Assembly: GCF_000243075.1 (NCBI RefSeq)
Contig: NC_016745.1
Coordinates: 1,381,001-1,445,000, forward strand
Direction: 5' to 3'
Length of the DNA: 64,000 nt
From: Oceanimonas sp. GK1
GTDB taxonomy: Bacteria > Pseudomonadota > Gammaproteobacteria > Enterobacterales > Aeromonadaceae
In this document: positions 13,255 through 20,792 of the stretch, in pieces
Numbering within the stretch: the first letter of the stretch is position 1
Layout of the letters: the number at the start of each line of letters is the position of its first letter
Notes under the pieces: model-generated
The model's database searches: none
Told to the model about the DNA's origin: nothing
Seen by the model: the letters and a program-made list of their open reading frames with translations, nothing else
Program-made: the position numbers and the translations under genes

Positions 13255-14853
13255 ATGCCATACGCCAACGAGATCGATACCCTGACCACACTGCTCAAGC
13301 AGAACCCGACCTGGGGCGCCATCAAACCCGAGCATGCCGCCCGCATGCGGGTGCAGAACCAATTCAAGACCGGCCTCGACATTGCCAAATACACCGCCAA
13401 AATCATGCGGGCAGACATGGCCGCCTATGATGCGGATCCGTCCCAGTACACTCAGTCTCTGGGCTGCTGGCATGGCTTTATCGGTCAGCAGAAGCTGATC
13501 TCCATCAAGAAGCACTTTGGCAGCACCAAGGGTCGTTACCTGTATCTGTCCGGCTGGATGGTGGCCGCGCTGCGCTCCGAGTTCGGCCCCCTGCCGGATC
13601 AGTCCATGCACGAGAAAACCTCGGTGCCGGCCCTGATTGAAGAGCTGTACACCTTCCTGCGCCAGGCCGACTCCTGGGAGCTGAATCACCTGTTCCGTGC
13701 CCTGGAAGACGCCCAGAAGGCCGGTGATGCTGCCAAAGTGAAGAACATTGAAGCCCAGATCGACAACCACCAGACTCATATCGTGCCCATTGTGGCGGAC
13801 ATCGACGCCGGTTTTGGTAACGCCGAGGCCACCTACCTGCTGGCCAGAAAGATGATTGAAGCCGGTGCCTGCTGTATTCAGCTGGAAAACCAGGTGTCCG
13901 ACGAGAAGCAGTGCGGCCACCAGGACGGCAAGGTCACCGTGCCCCACGCCGACTTCCTGGCCAAGATCAATGCCGTGCGCCTGGCCTTCCTCGAGCTGGG
14001 CGTGGACGACGGTGTCATTGTGGCCCGTACCGACTCTTTGGGTGCCGGTCTGACCAAACAGATTGCCGTGACCAACGAGCCGGGCGATCTGGGAGATCAG
14101 TACAACAGCTTCCTGGACGGCGACTACATCAACAGCGCCGACGAAATCGCCAACGGCGACGTGGTCATCAAGGCCAACGGCAAACTGAAAAAGGTCAAGC
14201 GCCTGGCTTCCGGTCTGTTCCAGTTCAAGGCCGGCTCCGGTGAAGACCGGGTGGTACTGGACTGCATCACCAGCCTGCAGCACGGCGCCGACCTGCTGTG
14301 GATTGAAACTGAGAAGCCCCACATCGGCCAGATCAAGGGCATGGTGGACCGCATTCGCGCCGTGGTGCCTGATGCCAAGCTGGTGTACAACAACAGCCCG
14401 TCCTTTAACTGGACCCTGAACTTCCGTCAGCAGGTGTTCGATGCCTGGGCCGCCGAAGGCAAGGACGTGTCCGGCTACGATCGGGATCGCCTGATGAGCG
14501 CCGATTACGACAGCACCGAGCTGGCCCTGCTGGCCGACGAGAAGGTGCGGACCTTCCAGGCCGACGCCGCCCGGGAAGCCGGCATCTTCCACCACCTGAT
14601 CACCCTGCCGACCTACCACACCGCGGCGCTGTCTACCGACAACCTGGCCAAGGGCTACTTCGGGGACGAAGGCATGCTGGCCTACGTGGCGGGCGTGCAG
14701 CGTCAGGAAATTCGTCAGGGCATTGCCACCGTCAAGCACCAGGACATGGCCGGCTCCAACATCGGTGACGATCACAAGGAGTTCTTCGCCGGTGACGCCG
14801 CCCTCAAGGCCGGCGGTAAAGACAACACCATGGGTCAGTTCGAAAACATCTGA
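13255..14853 (+). CDS. aceA: Isocitrate lyase, long (531-residue) class
   Basis: 532 residues, the class found in Pseudomonas and marine gammaproteobacteria, about 100 residues longer than E. coli AceA (434). The active-site loop is KQCGH with the catalytic Cys at residue 220 (E. coli reads KKCGH). Metal/substrate-binding segments PIVADIDAGFGN and LVYNNSPSFNWT are present. It splits isocitrate to glyoxylate and succinate, the entry to the glyoxylate shunt, needed on acetate or fatty acids and after branched-chain amino-acid breakdown, which fits the next operon. No malate synthase or aceK is adjacent. Followed by a strong terminator. Confidence 0.96.
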   Translation: MPYANEIDTLTTLLKQNPTWGAIKPEHAARMRVQNQFKTGLDIAKYTAKIMRADMAAYDADPSQYTQSLGCWHGFIGQQKLISIKKHFGSTKGRYLYLSGWMVAALRSEFGPLPDQSMHEKTSVPALIEELYTFLRQADSWELNHLFRALEDAQKAGDAAKVKNIEAQIDNHQTHIVPIVADIDAGFGNAEATYLLARKMIEAGACCIQLENQVSDEKQCGHQDGKVTVPHADFLAKINAVRLAFLELGVDDGVIVARTDSLGAGLTKQIAVTNEPGDLGDQYNSFLDGDYINSADEIANGDVVIKANGKLKKVKRLASGLFQFKAGSGEDRVVLDCITSLQHGADLLWIETEKPHIGQIKGMVDRIRAVVPDAKLVYNNSPSFNWTLNFRQQVFDAWAAEGKDVSGYDRDRLMSADYDSTELALLADEKVRTFQADAAREAGIFHHLITLPTYHTAALSTDNLAKGYFGDEGMLAYVAGVQRQEIRQGIATVKHQDMAGSNIGDDHKEFFAGDAALKAGGKDNTMGQFENI

Positions 14854-14900: not shown

Positions 14901-14927
14901 GGCAGCCCCATGGGCTGCCTTTTTTTC
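14901..14927 (+). terminator. Intrinsic terminator after aceA
   Basis: GGCAGCCC-cat-GGGCTGCC stem followed by a run of T, 47 bases after the aceA stop. Separates aceA from the branched-chain dehydrogenase operon. Confidence 0.92.
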
Positions 14928-15005: not shown

Positions 15006-16193
15006 ATGACCAATCCCAATAACGCCACCATGACCATGGTGCACCGGGTCCGGTTTGTGGACGGCCACGGCCTGACCATTCCCACCTTTCGGCTGTTGAA
15101 GGATGACGGCCATCTCTATGCCGACGCCACCGCGCCGGATCTCGACCAGGCGCAGGCGCTGGCCATGTATCACAGCATGGTGACCACCCGGCTGCTGGAT
15201 GAGCGCATGCTGGCGGCCCAGCGTCAGGGGCGGATCAGTTTTTATCTGCAAAGTCTGGGAGAAGAGGCCCAGGCGGTGGCCAGTGCCGCGGCACTGGCAC
15301 CCCAGGACATGATCCTGGCCCAGTACCGGGAGCAGGGCGCCCTGCTGCACCGGGGCTTTACTCTGGAGCAGTTCATGAACCAGCTGTTTTCCAATGCCGA
15401 AGATCTGGGCAAGGGCCGGCAGATGCCGGTGCATTACGGCTGCCGCGCGCTCAATTTCATGACCATTTCCTCCCCCCTGGCCACCCAGATTCCCCAGGCC
15501 ACCGGCGTGGCTTATGGGCAGCGGCTGGCGGGGGAGGACGCCATTACCCTGTGCTATTTCGGCGAAGGGGCGGCCTCGGAAGGGGACTTTCATGCCGGGC
15601 TCAACATGGCGGCGGTGCTGAAGACGCCGGTGATCTTTTTTTGCCGCAATAATGGCTATGCCATTTCCACCCCGGCCAGCGAACAGTTTGTGGGAGACGG
15701 CATTGCCAGCCGCGCCGTGGGCTACGGCATTCGCACCCTGCGGGTGGACGGCGCCGACACCCTGGCGGTGTTTGAGGCCACCCGCCAGGCCCGGAACCTG
15801 ATTCTGGCTGAGCCTCAGCCCGTATTGATCGAATCCATGTCCTACCGGTTGGGCGCCCACTCCTCGTCGGACGATCCCAGCGGTTACCGTTCCCGGGCCG
15901 AGGAAGAGCGCTGGCGCAAGCGGGATCCCATCGGCCGTTACCGGCTGTGGCTGCTGCATCAGGGCTGGCTTGACGAAGACGATGACCGGCGCCGCAGCGA
16001 TACCCTGCGCCGGCAGATACTGGAGGTCATGAAACAGGCCGAACAGCGCTCCCGACCGCCGTTGAACAGCCTTATTGAAGACGTCTATGCCAGCCCGCCG
16101 GCACGGCTGAAGCAACAACTGGAACAGCTGAAGCGGCAGCTGGCCGCCTACCCCGAGCACTACCCCGCCAGCCAGGGGAGGGAGCGCGAATGA
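15006..16193 (+). CDS. bkdA1: Branched-chain 2-oxoacid dehydrogenase E1 component, alpha subunit
   Basis: 395 residues. Thiamine-diphosphate/Mg motif: [10 protein letters not shown] (186-195) running to CRNN (213-216). The segment [11 protein letters not shown] (280-290) plus PSGYRS (291-296) aligns with the loop of the mitochondrial enzyme that carries two regulatory phosphoserines; residues S286 and S296 sit at those positions. The E1 alpha2beta2 enzyme decarboxylates the 2-oxoacids of Val, Leu and Ile. The stop overlaps the start of the beta gene by 4 bases (ATGA), indicating translational coupling. A TAGAAT element at 14964-14969 is a possible -10. Confidence 0.93.
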
Positions 16194-17167
16194 AACAGAT
16201 GAACCTGTTGCAGGCGGTGAACCAGGCGCTGGATGTGGCCATGGAAAGGGAAAAAGCGGTACTTTGCTTTGGCGAGGATGTGGGCCATTTTGGCGGCGTG
16301 TTTCGGGCCACCAGCGGCCTGCAGGAGAAGTACGGCGAGGCGCGCTGTTTCAATACGCCGCTCACCGAGCAGGGCATTATCGGCTTTGCCAATGGCCTGG
16401 CGGCCAAGGGGCTGAAGCCGGTGGCGGAAATTCAGTTTGCCGATTACATCTTTCCCGCCTTTGACCAGCTGGTGAACGAAACCGCCAAGTTCCGCTACCG
16501 CTCCGGCAACCAGTTCGATGTGGGCGGGCTGGTGGTGCGTACGCCCTATGGGGGCGGCATTGCCGGCGGCCACTACCACAGCCAGTCGCCGGAAGCCTAT
16601 TTTGTGCATACCGCCGGGCTGCGGGTGCTGGTGCCCCGGGGGCCGGTGCAGGCCAAGGGGTTGCTGCTGGCGGCCATCGACTGCCCGGATCCGGTGATCT
16701 TTTTCGAGCCCAAGCGGCTGTACCGGGCGGCGGTGGCCGAGGTGGACGAAGGGTACTACCAATTGCCGCTGGACCAGGCCGAGGTGGTGCAGGAAGGTAC
16801 CGACATCACCCTGCTGGCCTGGGGCGCCCAGATGGACTACCTGCTGAAGGCGGCTGCGCTTGCCGATAAAGAAGGCATTTCCTGCGAGGTGATCGATCTG
16901 CAGAGCCTGCTGCCCTGGGACGAAGACACCGTCGTGGCCTCGGTGCTCAAGACCGGGCGACTGCTGGTGAGCCACGAGGCGCCCCTCACCGGTGGCCTGG
17001 GCGCCGAGATCGCCGCCACCGTGCAGGAGCGCTGCTTTCTGTATCTGGAAAGCCCCGTCGCCCGGGTGTGCGGGCTCGATACCCCCTTTCCGCTGGCGCT
17101 GGAAAAGGAATACCTGCCCGATCAGTACAAGATTTTCGAGGCGATCAAGGCCACGGTGAATTTTTAG
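16190..17167 (+). CDS. bkdA2: Branched-chain 2-oxoacid dehydrogenase E1 component, beta subunit
   Basis: 325 residues, the standard E1-beta length. Typical segments are [13 protein letters not shown] (near 25-37), the [13 protein letters not shown] active-site stretch (about 55-67), [21 protein letters not shown] (about 85-105) and a C-terminal transketolase domain ending [14 protein letters not shown]. Pairs with E1-alpha to bind thiamine diphosphate at the subunit interface. Tightly packed between the alpha subunit (4-base overlap) and E2 (9-base gap). Confidence 0.94.
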
Positions 17168-17176
17168 GAGCGCGCC

Positions 17177-18406
17177 ATGAAACAGGACTTCTTTCTGCCG
17201 GATATCGGCGAGGGCATAGTGGAATGCGAGCTGGTAGACTGGCTGGTGGCCGAGGGCGACCGGGTGGAGGAAGATCAGGCCATCTGCGATGTGATGACCG
17301 ACAAGGCCCTGGTGCAGATCCCGGCGGTGCACGCCGGCACCATTACTCGCCTGTATGTGAACAAGGGCGACATGGCCCGGGTGCATGCACCCCTGTTTGA
17401 AATGACGCTGGCGGGCGAAGAGACGGATGCAGCGCCGGCCGAAGCCCTCCCTGAAACGCCAACCTCATTGCCCCCTGAACCTGAGCCCAAGCCGGCGCCC
17501 GCCGCCACCCCCGCCGCCACCCACACCGAGCCGCCCGCCTCCTCCGGCAACCGGGCCGTGGCCAGCCCGGCGGTACGCCGGCTGGCCCGTGAGCACAATG
17601 TGGATCTGACCGAAGTGCCCGGCTCCGGCGACAAGGGGCGGGTTTACAAGGAAGACGTGGAGGCCTGGCTCAAGCACCAGCATGCCCCGGCGGCAACAGA
17701 GATGTCGGCCTGGCGCGAGCCGGTGACCGGGGTGCGCGCCGCCATGGCCCGGGCGATGACCGCCAGTCTCGCCATTCCCCGCTTCACCTACTGCGAGGAG
17801 TTTTGCCTCGATGAACTGCTCACGCTGAAGCGCCGGCTAGCGCCCGGGTTTGAACGGGAAGGCGTCAAGCTCACCCTGCTGCCGTTTTTTATTAAGGCAC
17901 TGTCCCTGGCGCTGGCGGACTATCCGCTGCTGGGGGCCCGGCTTGACGACGACGGTCATACCCTGGTGTATGAAGACGGTCACCATGTAGGGGTGGCGGT
18001 GGATACGCCGGCCGGCCTGCTGGTGCCGGTGCTGCACCATTGTGAAGACAAGTCGGTGCTGACCCTGGCCCGTGAGCTCAGCCGTCTGTCCGAGGCGGCC
18101 CGGGCCGGCCGGCTGACTCAGGCCGAGCTCAGCGGTGCCACCATTACCCTGTCCAATATCGGTGTGCTGGGCGGCACCGTGTCTACCCCCATCGTCACCC
18201 CGCCCCAGCTGGCCATTGCCGCCCTGGGGCGGCTGCAGCGGCTGCCCCGATTTGGTGAGGGGGACAGGGTGGTGGCGCAACACATCATGGCGGTGTGCTG
18301 GTCGGCGGATCACCGGGTGATCGACGGCGCTACCCTGGCGCGCTTCAACCGCTGCTGGCAGGATTACCTGGAACAACCCGACCGCATGCTGGCCCGGCTG
18401 CACTAG
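17177..18406 (+). CDS. bkdB: Branched-chain 2-oxoacid dehydrogenase E2 component (lipoamide acyltransferase)
   Basis: 409 residues with the E2 layout: one lipoyl domain (1-80; lipoylated Lys in MTDKALVQI, residue 43), a Pro/Ala-rich linker (about 85-125), a peripheral subunit-binding domain (about 130-168; ASPAVRRLAREHNVDL) and the catalytic acyltransferase core, with the active His in HRVIDG (His about residue 379). It takes the acyl group from E1 to CoA. No dedicated E3 (lipoamide dehydrogenase) gene follows; the complex presumably borrows the shared one. The kinase gene begins 11 bases later. Confidence 0.94.
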   Translation: MKQDFFLPDIGEGIVECELVDWLVAEGDRVEEDQAICDVMTDKALVQIPAVHAGTITRLYVNKGDMARVHAPLFEMTLAGEETDAAPAEALPETPTSLPPEPEPKPAPAATPAATHTEPPASSGNRAVASPAVRRLAREHNVDLTEVPGSGDKGRVYKEDVEAWLKHQHAPAATEMSAWREPVTGVRAAMARAMTASLAIPRFTYCEEFCLDELLTLKRRLAPGFEREGVKLTLLPFFIKALSLALADYPLLGARLDDDGHTLVYEDGHHVGVAVDTPAGLLVPVLHHCEDKSVLTLARELSRLSEAARAGRLTQAELSGATITLSNIGVLGGTVSTPIVTPPQLAIAALGRLQRLPRFGEGDRVVAQHIMAVCWSADHRVIDGATLARFNRCWQDYLEQPDRMLARLH

Positions 18407-18417
18407 GGCGGCAGGCC

Positions 18418-20241
18418 ATGGATGCCCTGGGCAACTTTTACATTCCCGAAGAGCAGTCGGTTTATCTGCTGAGCGCCAATGACGCGCAAAAGCTGAAAGA
18501 CTGGATTGCCCTGTGCGTGGCCGAGCTGGAAAAGCTCGGTTACCGCGATATCAGCCTGGCCGGCAAGGGCGTGTATGGCTTCACCTTTGCCGGCACCGGG
18601 GAGCAGGGCGAGCAGGTGGCGTTCAAGTTTTCCCGCATCGACTTGCCCGAAGCGGTGCGGGAGCGACTGGCAGACGAGGCTTACATGCTCTCCTGTGTGC
18701 AGCATCCGCTGGTGCCGACCTATCTCGCCTACGCCCTGCGCGGCCGCCAGGGCATTTTGCTGATGAGCCGGGCGCCGGGGGAAGACCTGGAGCATTACAG
18801 CCTGCGCCGGGGCCGGCTGTCGGCCCGGGAGGTGATCGATATCGCCGCCCAGCTGGCGGACATACTGCAGGCCCTGCGCCGCCATACCCAGGGCGGTGAG
18901 CCGGCGCCCGTGGTGCACGGTGATATCAAGCCGTCCAACATTGTCTATGACCCTTCGAGCGGGCGCATCAGCCTGGTGGACTGGGGATCGTCGGTGTTTG
19001 CGCAACTGGATGCCGAGGGCAACTGGGCCGGCGCCCGCGGGCTGGCGCTGCTGTCGGGGGATCTGCAGCAGTCCAATGCCCGCATGGGGGATGTGTATTT
19101 TATCGGGCCCGAGCAGCTGGCCGGGGCCCTTTCCAGCCCCCGCTTCGACGAGCAGGGGGTAGCCGGCACCCTCTATGCCCTGGCCTCGGGCCAGGCCTGC
19201 CGCTTTGGCCGCAAGGCCCTTCCCGCCACCAGCCTGGGGTTGCCGAAAGAATTTGCCCGGCTGCTGGATGCCCTGCTCGATGACGATCCCGAGCGCCGCC
19301 GCCGGGCCGGGGACTACTGGCTGAAGGCCATGCCCCGGCTGCAGCGGCTGGTGCTGCCGGCGCTGCCGCTGTTTGATGACAGCCCGCTGCTGCCGGTATG
19401 GTCCAGCCGCGGCGAACGGGAGATTGACACCGTAGTGTATTCCTCGCGCAAGTCCTTTCTGCGCGAGCGCAGCGAACGGGAAGACATTCACCAGGTAACC
19501 GATGCCCAGCTGGAGCGGTACTACAAGCAATACCTGGAAGGCATGGGCGAAACCGAAAAGGCCTTTGTGGCGGCGGTCAGCCGGCTGGGACGTTATCCGG
19601 TGATGGGCGGGCTGGCGCTGCACTGGCACGAGGGCGGGGTGGATATCGATTCCAGCCTGAACCTCTACGATGACCGCCTGCTGCCGGCCTTTGGCGTGGC
19701 GGTCAACAACGTGGTGGCGCTGGCCCGGGCCATCAGCAAAACCGGGGTGTTCAAGGCCTGCCTGTTCAATGCCCGCAACACCCTGCACCTGAGCCGCAGC
19801 GGACCGGGGAAGCCCTTTGTGCCCCCGCCGGGCATGGCCATTGCCTACCGGCTGGCGGACCGGCCCGATACCGGCGCCGATCGCCAGCCCCATTCCTATT
19901 TCGAAGACGGCCGGGATCCGGACGAGCAATTGGTGTTGCCTGCTGCCATCATGGCGGTGATCGCCAGGCTCAACCACATTCACCATACCGGCTGCATTAT
20001 TTTTGAAGTGACCCCCGAGCACCTCAAACTGCACAGCTACTACCGGCTGCTGGACGCCGCCGCCGAGGCCGAGTTTGCCGCTCTGCTGGCGCAAATCGTG
20101 GCCCATATTCCACTCATTGACGATCAGGGCGTGGGCGGTTTTATGAAACTGCCCTGCAAGAACACCCGTTTCTTTACTCACCTGCCGGTACAGCCCGACT
20201 ATTTTTATCCCGCCAATCCCCGGGCCTGGCGCAGAACGTAA
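18418..20241 (+). CDS. Hanks-type protein kinase, fourth gene of the branched-chain dehydrogenase operon
   Basis: 607 residues from the ATG at 18418. The kinase fold spans about 40-310: Gly-rich loop GKGVYGFTFAG (49-59), VAFK with Lys70, helix-C Glu near 87, catalytic loop VHGDIKPSN (166-174, Asp169, Lys171, Asn174) and DWG (188-190) in place of DFG. All catalytic residues are present, so it should be active. There is no membrane segment or PASTA/sensor domain. The C-terminal 260 residues (about 345-607) are a second domain I do not recognise, with repeated His and aromatic residues. The 11-base spacing from E2 argues for co-transcription. Substrate unknown; the dehydrogenase itself is the obvious candidate. 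Its last 37 bases overlap acpH tail to tail. Confidence 0.85.
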   Translation: MDALGNFYIPEEQSVYLLSANDAQKLKDWIALCVAELEKLGYRDISLAGKGVYGFTFAGTGEQGEQVAFKFSRIDLPEAVRERLADEAYMLSCVQHPLVPTYLAYALRGRQGILLMSRAPGEDLEHYSLRRGRLSAREVIDIAAQLADILQALRRHTQGGEPAPVVHGDIKPSNIVYDPSSGRISLVDWGSSVFAQLDAEGNWAGARGLALLSGDLQQSNARMGDVYFIGPEQLAGALSSPRFDEQGVAGTLYALASGQACRFGRKALPATSLGLPKEFARLLDALLDDDPERRRRAGDYWLKAMPRLQRLVLPALPLFDDSPLLPVWSSRGEREIDTVVYSSRKSFLRERSEREDIHQVTDAQLERYYKQYLEGMGETEKAFVAAVSRLGRYPVMGGLALHWHEGGVDIDSSLNLYDDRLLPAFGVAVNNVVALARAISKTGVFKACLFNARNTLHLSRSGPGKPFVPPPGMAIAYRLADRPDTGADRQPHSYFEDGRDPDEQLVLPAAIMAVIARLNHIHHTGCIIFEVTPEHLKLHSYYRLLDAAAEAEFAALLAQIVAHIPLIDDQGVGGFMKLPCKNTRFFTHLPVQPDYFYPANPRAWRRT

Positions 20242-20792
20242 TCCTGCAGCTCGGGATAGAAGCCGAGAAAGGCCTGTTCAAATTCGCGGTAGTGACGTTC
20301 CAGCAGCGGCCGGCAGCGGGGCAGGGGAGTGGGTCGCTGAAAGCGCCGGTCGATGCGTGCCAGCGCGGTGATAATACCGTCGAACTCCCGGTAGTGCAGC
20401 AGCAAGCCGCTTTGCTCCATGCGGGTTACCAGCTGCACCATGGCCTCGGGCCAGTGCCGGTCGGGCTGAAGTCTGTCGTGGGCCTGTTCGACAAAACGCT
20501 CAAGAGGCTGCGAATGAAAACGCGGCCAGTGCCGGGCCAGAAAATGGTCAAACATCATGTCGGTGATGATGCCGCCAAAGCGGCGAAAGGGCGGTGGCAA
20601 TGCCCGGACCCGGCCGAGGTGCAGCGGGTGGGCGTCGGTAAAACTGTCGATGCGTCGGTGCAGCATAATGCCGGTCTGCAGCCGCGGTGGCAGGGAAGCA
20701 TCCACGGTGCCCCGGGCGTACTCTCCCAGCAGGGCACCGGCCAGGCTGGTGTGGCTGAGATCGGCCAGGTGGAGGTGTGCCAGGTAGTTCAT
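20205..20792 (-). CDS. acpH: Acyl-carrier-protein phosphodiesterase
   Basis: 195 residues, E. coli AcpH length (193). Starts MNYLAHLHLADLSHTSLAGALLGEY and contains the HD-like conserved set: HRRIDSFTDAHP (about 45-56) and FDHFLARHW (about 81-89), the metal-binding His/Asp residues of the DUF479 family. It removes 4'-phosphopantetheine from holo-ACP. The ATG directly follows the TGA of the CBS-domain gene with no bases between, so the two are probably coupled. Its 3' end overlaps the convergent kinase gene by 37 bases. Confidence 0.92.
   Translation of the reverse strand: MNYLAHLHLADLSHTSLAGALLGEYARGTVDASLPPRLQTGIMLHRRIDSFTDAHPLHLGRVRALPPPFRRFGGIITDMMFDHFLARHWPRFHSQPLERFVEQAHDRLQPDRHWPEAMVQLVTRMEQSGLLLHYREFDGIITALARIDRRFQRPTPLPRCRPLLERHYREFEQAFLGFYPELQDYVLRQARGLAG

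Follow-up and report, generated by a model that had tools for sequence, protein, structure and literature searches.

Oceanimonas sp. GK1, like many marine bacteria, carries the gene of a Hanks-type Ser/Thr kinase at the end of its branched-chain keto acid dehydrogenase (BCKDH) operon, and the near-constant co-inheritance of the two suggests that bacteria evolved a phosphorylation switch of their own for this enzyme complex. The gene (18418..20241, forward strand, 607 amino acids, ATG start) lies in a stretch of 64,000 nucleotides (NC_016745.1, positions 1,381,001 to 1,445,000), hereafter called the window. The product is probably a soluble kinase dedicated to the adjacent dehydrogenase, which is of the mitochondrial type, and non-homologous to the mitochondrial kinase BCKDK. 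In animals, phosphorylation of BCKDH acts as a central switch in the use of branched-chain amino acids, one that has been regarded as a mitochondrial affair, carried out by a histidine-kinase-like enzyme. If the proposal is true, a bacterial clade with the same type of E1 would have arrived convergently at its own solution for this enzyme, a co-inherited and non-homologous kinase, and a likely substrate would be at hand for an uncharacterized kinase family with hundreds of gammaproteobacterial holders, Shewanella among them. In addition, the kinase exposes a domain of about 300 residues without known structural relative. A search restricted to open-licence full texts turned up no paper that deals with this kinase or reports a Hanks-type kinase phosphorylating a bacterial bkd complex.

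The Kinase Gene and Its Catalytic Domain

The open reading frame coordinates bear out the initial annotation of this DNA, which had placed the kinase gene 11 bases after the E2 gene (ending at 18406) on the same strand, and Pfam domains agree with its naming of the three upstream genes as E1α, E1β and E2. These three overlap one another or are spaced within 10 bases, and a search for a terminator-like site between E2 and the kinase found none. The kinase gene is not a chance reading frame, since at least 231 genome loci, from as many species records, preserve it. The nearest match is 92% identical and belongs to Oceanimonas sp. CHS3-5, and no relatives were found in viral contigs. One match (L154, G313:C1:2298345-2300150) shows a single in-frame TAA, yet a reading frame of 606 amino acids was called there, so that the stop is probably an effect of the match end.

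The protein begins with a conserved extension (NFYIPEEQSVYLL..., residues 1-42, 18418..18543, +), in which 12 of 42 positions are invariant among 153 homologues. The protein kinase domain follows (18544..19347, +; 57 of 268 positions invariant in the same set) and matches Pfam Pkinase with 64.2 bits on residues 44-260, the cut-off being 31.7; it is the only match to PF00069 above cut-off in the host genome. Its predicted fold is most similar to PknA by Foldseek (E 8e-11), with 1,991 matches at E<=0.001. The catalytic set that had been described as complete, namely Lys70, Asp169, Lys171, Asn174 and Asp188, proved invariant in 153/153 homologues, as did the αC Glu87 and the αF Asp244, and the Gly-rich loop, the VAIK Lys, the HxD Asp, the DxG Asp and the APE Glu are invariant or nearly so. 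Two textbook motifs are altered, again invariantly: HRD is replaced by HGD (in HGDIKPSN), which makes the enzyme a non-RD kinase, and DFG by DWG. The protein has no transmembrane segment, its hydropathy over 19 residues reaching 1.63 at best, and no match to PASTA repeats.

Co-Inheritance with E1α

The 395 genomes sampled from the host's order were each searched with a profile of the kinase and with the E1α protein. E1α scores were two-peaked, either above 500 or below 250 bits, and only the class above 500 was counted. By this count, the two genes occur together in 80 genomes; 1 genome has only the kinase, 3 have only E1α and 311 have neither. In G096, the one genome counted with the kinase only, a fragment of E1α was located at the edge of a contig, so that all kinase genomes (81/81) possess E1α. 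The genomes with E1α only are G166, which is 80% complete, and G384 and G393, which are small-genome members of an Alteromonadaceae-like family (f7). Both genes are absent from all listed genomes of a sister genus in the window's own family, by inference Aeromonas, and from a close relative (G169). The expectation of the initial annotation that the kinase stands beside bkd genes and is missing where bkd is missing is strongly supported by these counts. Outside the order, the class and phylum samples gave 10 genomes with E1α, all gammaproteobacterial (families f192, f196 and f208), and 10/10 have the kinase, which invariably follows E2 as the next gene downstream; the kinase search of the phylum sample was confined to E1α-positive genomes. 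Separately, genome G753 holds an 86-residue fragment of the kinase C-terminus at a contig edge (L117, 1486-1758), beside an acyl-CoA dehydrogenase gene and without E1α of this type, for which an assembly gap, contamination or an independent context may be considered.

Kinase and E1α are at most 10 kb apart in 47/90 genomes, and in 47/47 of these the kinase is on the same strand and downstream. Linkage so defined holds for 12/12 genomes of the window's own group, for 24/28 of f7 and likewise in four other families (1/1, 1/1, 9/9). The unit persists even where another gene is interposed, coding for an rlmJ-like methyltransferase or an AAA ATPase. Since the remaining flanking genes vary from one family to the next, bkd is the only neighbour common to all. 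Furthermore, the trees of the kinase and E1α are congruent (r=0.76, reached by 0/999 permutations), and in both of them the Oceanimonas group is placed with Rheinheimera, as if the kinase and bkd genes had moved as a whole. Family names such as Shewanellaceae (f6) and Alteromonadaceae (f7) are deduced from named relatives among the kinase matches.

A Dehydrogenase of the Mitochondrial Type

E1α (395 amino acids, 15006..16193, +) matches E1_dh (PF00676) with 310 bits, and its best relative among solved proteins is human BCKDHA with 424 bits, against 237 for Thermus thermophilus and 218 for Pseudomonas putida. E1β (325 amino acids, 16190..17167, +; Transket_pyr and Transketolase_C) likewise matches human BCKDHB with 430 bits versus 341 for P. 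putida. By sequence comparison, the E1 of the operon is a mitochondrial-type BCKDH E1, and the substrate analogy with the mitochondrial system is therefore stronger than the initial annotation could know. The E2 acyltransferase (409 amino acids, 17177..18406, +) has one lipoyl, one E3-binding and one catalytic domain (PF00364, PF02817 and PF00198). E2 proteins of Rheinheimera and many Alteromonadaceae have about 510-570 amino acids, and that of L016 (2913-4445) has at least two lipoyl-domain starts (DFILPDIGEGIVECE) versus one in the window, so the number of lipoyl domains varies within the family.

Pairwise alignment to 1dtw_A identifies residues 280-296 of E1α (15843..15893, +) as the counterpart of the human loop phosphorylated by BCKDK (YRIGHHSTSDDSSAYRS), and Ser286 (codon 15861-15863) aligns with the human phospho-site Ser292. 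Both Ser286 and Ala284 are invariant in 104/104 E1α proteins outside the kinase-less genomes G384 and G393. Comparison of the E1α proteins of these two with the 104 others leaves just three nearly invariant positions at which both deviate; positions 282 and 284 are among them, no more than four residues away from Ser286. Gly also occupies position 284 in all of 19 additional members of the genus of G384, none of which has a kinase close to bkd; absence of the kinase is established genome-wide for G384 and G393, and for the other members of the genus in the vicinity of bkd. The loci concerned (L145, L146 and L206-L225 except L208, from the genus of G384 and from G393) keep E1α, E1β and E2, with Gly at 284. 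As a check on this pattern, a further genome with Ala284 and no kinase near bkd (G1112) was taken up, and a search limited to the whole contig that carries bkd gave no kinase. The change from Ala284 to Gly in the kinase-less genus might serve as a pointer to a phosphorylation site, as a lead only.

The C-Terminal Domain

Residues 311-607 (19348..20238, +) form a domain without known relative. The initial annotation had also failed to recognize it, and in this it is confirmed, there being no match to a Pfam or NCBIfam family in the window member; the length of 260 residues given there is to be corrected, since the domain is slightly longer, with about 297. AlphaFold2 predicts a fold for residues 311-607 from 91 sequences with a predicted local distance difference test score (pLDDT) of 82.5 and a predicted template modelling score (pTM) of 0.81; Foldseek found no match to it in the PDB at E<=0.001, and comparison of the domain profile with PDB sequences gave none either. 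DUF4417 matches 6/91 members (best E 2.9e-4), with the window member not among them. Comparison of the two halves of the domain by hhalign (P=6.6e-6, probability 85%; P=0.3 for a control stretch) indicates that residues 381-444 (19558..19749, +) and 509-572 (19942..20133, +) are copies of an internal duplication. Moreover, invariant loops of the domain (HSYFEDG.DP.E, SRK..L and GFMK.P) are candidates for contacts with a ligand or a partner.

Proposed Function and Alternatives

We infer as follows the activity of the kinase, its substrate and site, its ligand and the sense in which it controls the enzyme. Phosphorylation of one of the BCKDH subunits is the most likely role of the kinase domain. 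The favoured target would be the E1α loop with Ser286, the equivalent of mitochondrial Ser292, where the phosphate would block reductive acylation of the E2 lipoyl domain by E1, while the N-terminal extension and the C-terminal domain might dock on the complex or sense the keto acids or acyl-CoAs of the pathway. Direct phosphorylation of this loop is the mechanism we favour, if tentatively, its chance being put at somewhat below one half. The fuller proposal, namely that a Hanks-type kinase with a hitherto unseen C-terminal fold independently became an E1α kinase, acts on the same loop serine as BCKDK and uses its new domain to sense branched-chain keto acids or acyl-CoAs, is held to be possible to the same limited degree.

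Several observations weigh against this proposal. The kinase is unlinked to bkd in 32/32 Shewanellaceae and in 7/7 genomes of family f17. The initial annotation had named orthologs lying usually away from bkd as a sign that its idea was wrong, and this came out half true: the kinase is unlinked in Shewanellaceae, f17 and a few Alteromonadaceae, and it nonetheless co-occurs with bkd in all of them. Co-occurrence itself is in part shared ancestry. The conservation of Ser286 was rejected as evidence for phosphorylation, since the residue is equally conserved in kinase-less relatives and thus says nothing on the matter. The replacement of Ala284 by Gly represents one or two evolutionary events and was noticed after the fact, and loops near active sites abound in invariant residues. 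Lastly, a PP2C phosphatase (PF13672 and PF00481) that could reverse such a phosphorylation was not found in the host genome by searches whose controls worked.

Among the other explanations, the kinase may respond to the state of the complex by binding E2, a keto acid or an acyl-CoA and phosphorylate another target, for example a regulator of branched-chain fatty-acid synthesis or amino-acid catabolism. This is unlikely, even though the unlinked and always present kinase of Shewanella and f17 would suit it and the orphan C-terminal domain with its invariant loops (SRK..L, HSYFEDG and GFMK.P) could be the sensor, for no neighbours other than the bkd genes recur from family to family, which makes the complex itself the simplest substrate. 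Near-obligate co-inheritance also resembles that of a required factor more than that of an optional regulator, as if the kinase were an assembly or maturation factor of this type of BCKDH, acting through constitutive phosphorylation of a subunit or ATP-driven assembly and not controlling activity; however, the genus of G384 keeps E1α, E1β and E2 without an adjacent kinase, and because G384 and G393 keep bkd where a genome-wide search found no kinase, the complex can exist without it, so this idea is considered quite improbable.

Still less probable is a small-molecule (APH-like) kinase which acts on a branched-chain metabolite and for that reason is encoded in a catabolic operon. Compatible with it are the HGD motif, where HRD is usual, and a weak match to Pfam APH (27.4 bits), but Pkinase scores 64.2 bits, the best Foldseek matches are PknA and PknE, and the APE-like Glu, the αF Asp and the αI Arg, all typical of Hanks kinases, are conserved. 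A mere passenger, whose co-occurrence reflects vertical descent in one clade and whose adjacency is accidental, could be imagined from the fact that the holders found are all Gammaproteobacteria and most belong to one order. This reading is already disfavoured and hardly credible, given that the genes are linked in six families and jointly missing from the sister genus and G169, and that all 32 Shewanellaceae genomes with E1α retain the kinase although it is unlinked there. A kinase dedicated to the adjacent BCKDH is thus preferred here.

Neighbouring Genes

The bkd operon is directly preceded by a gene of isocitrate lyase of the long PRK06498 type (13255-14853, +; 1032 bits). Isocitrate lyase of this type also stands directly upstream of bkd in Oceanisphaera and some Zobellella. 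In the Oceanimonas window a strong intrinsic terminator, with an 8-pair stem and a T7 tail (14901-14919, +), intervenes between the two. At the other end, the last 37 bases of the kinase gene (20205-20241) overlap a convergent gene of an acyl-carrier-protein phosphodiesterase (20205-20792, -), and a similar overlap of the two genes occurs again in Oceanisphaera and some Zobellella.

Comparison with Known Systems

The bkdA1/A2/B operon of P. putida, like that of the window, is a bacterial operon for a three-subunit BCKDH, but its E1α is of a distant type (218 bits, versus 424 bits for the human protein), and we know of no kinase associated with it. Bacterial Hanks-type kinases such as PknA, PknB and StkP are similar to the window protein in the sequence and predicted fold of the kinase domain. 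Unlike them, the window kinase has neither a membrane segment nor PASTA domains, its host lacks a detectable PP2C, it carries the non-RD HGD and DWG motifs, and its gene is sited in a metabolic operon. AceK, the isocitrate dehydrogenase kinase/phosphatase, is a kinase of a metabolic enzyme whose gene lies next to others of its pathway; unlike the window protein, it is bifunctional and not of the Hanks type. The likeness is one of analogy only; in the window isocitrate lyase is a neighbour, with the terminator in between.

As for the mitochondrial system, the window kinase gave no match to the GHKL ATPase and BCDHK_Adom3 domains of the mitochondrial BCDHK/PDK family, and PF10436 was not found in the host genome, in a search in which the control genomes were silent too. 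BCKDK inactivates human E1α at Ser292 and is in turn inhibited by α-ketoisocaproate (PMC8872256). The window protein differs from BCKDK, which acts on Ser292 and Ser293 of BCKDHA, in being of the Hanks type and in its unrelated C-terminal domain; the two have in common a tie to a BCKDH, with E1α and E1β belonging to one subfamily and the Ser-bearing loop shared (PMC8872256, PMC11078707).
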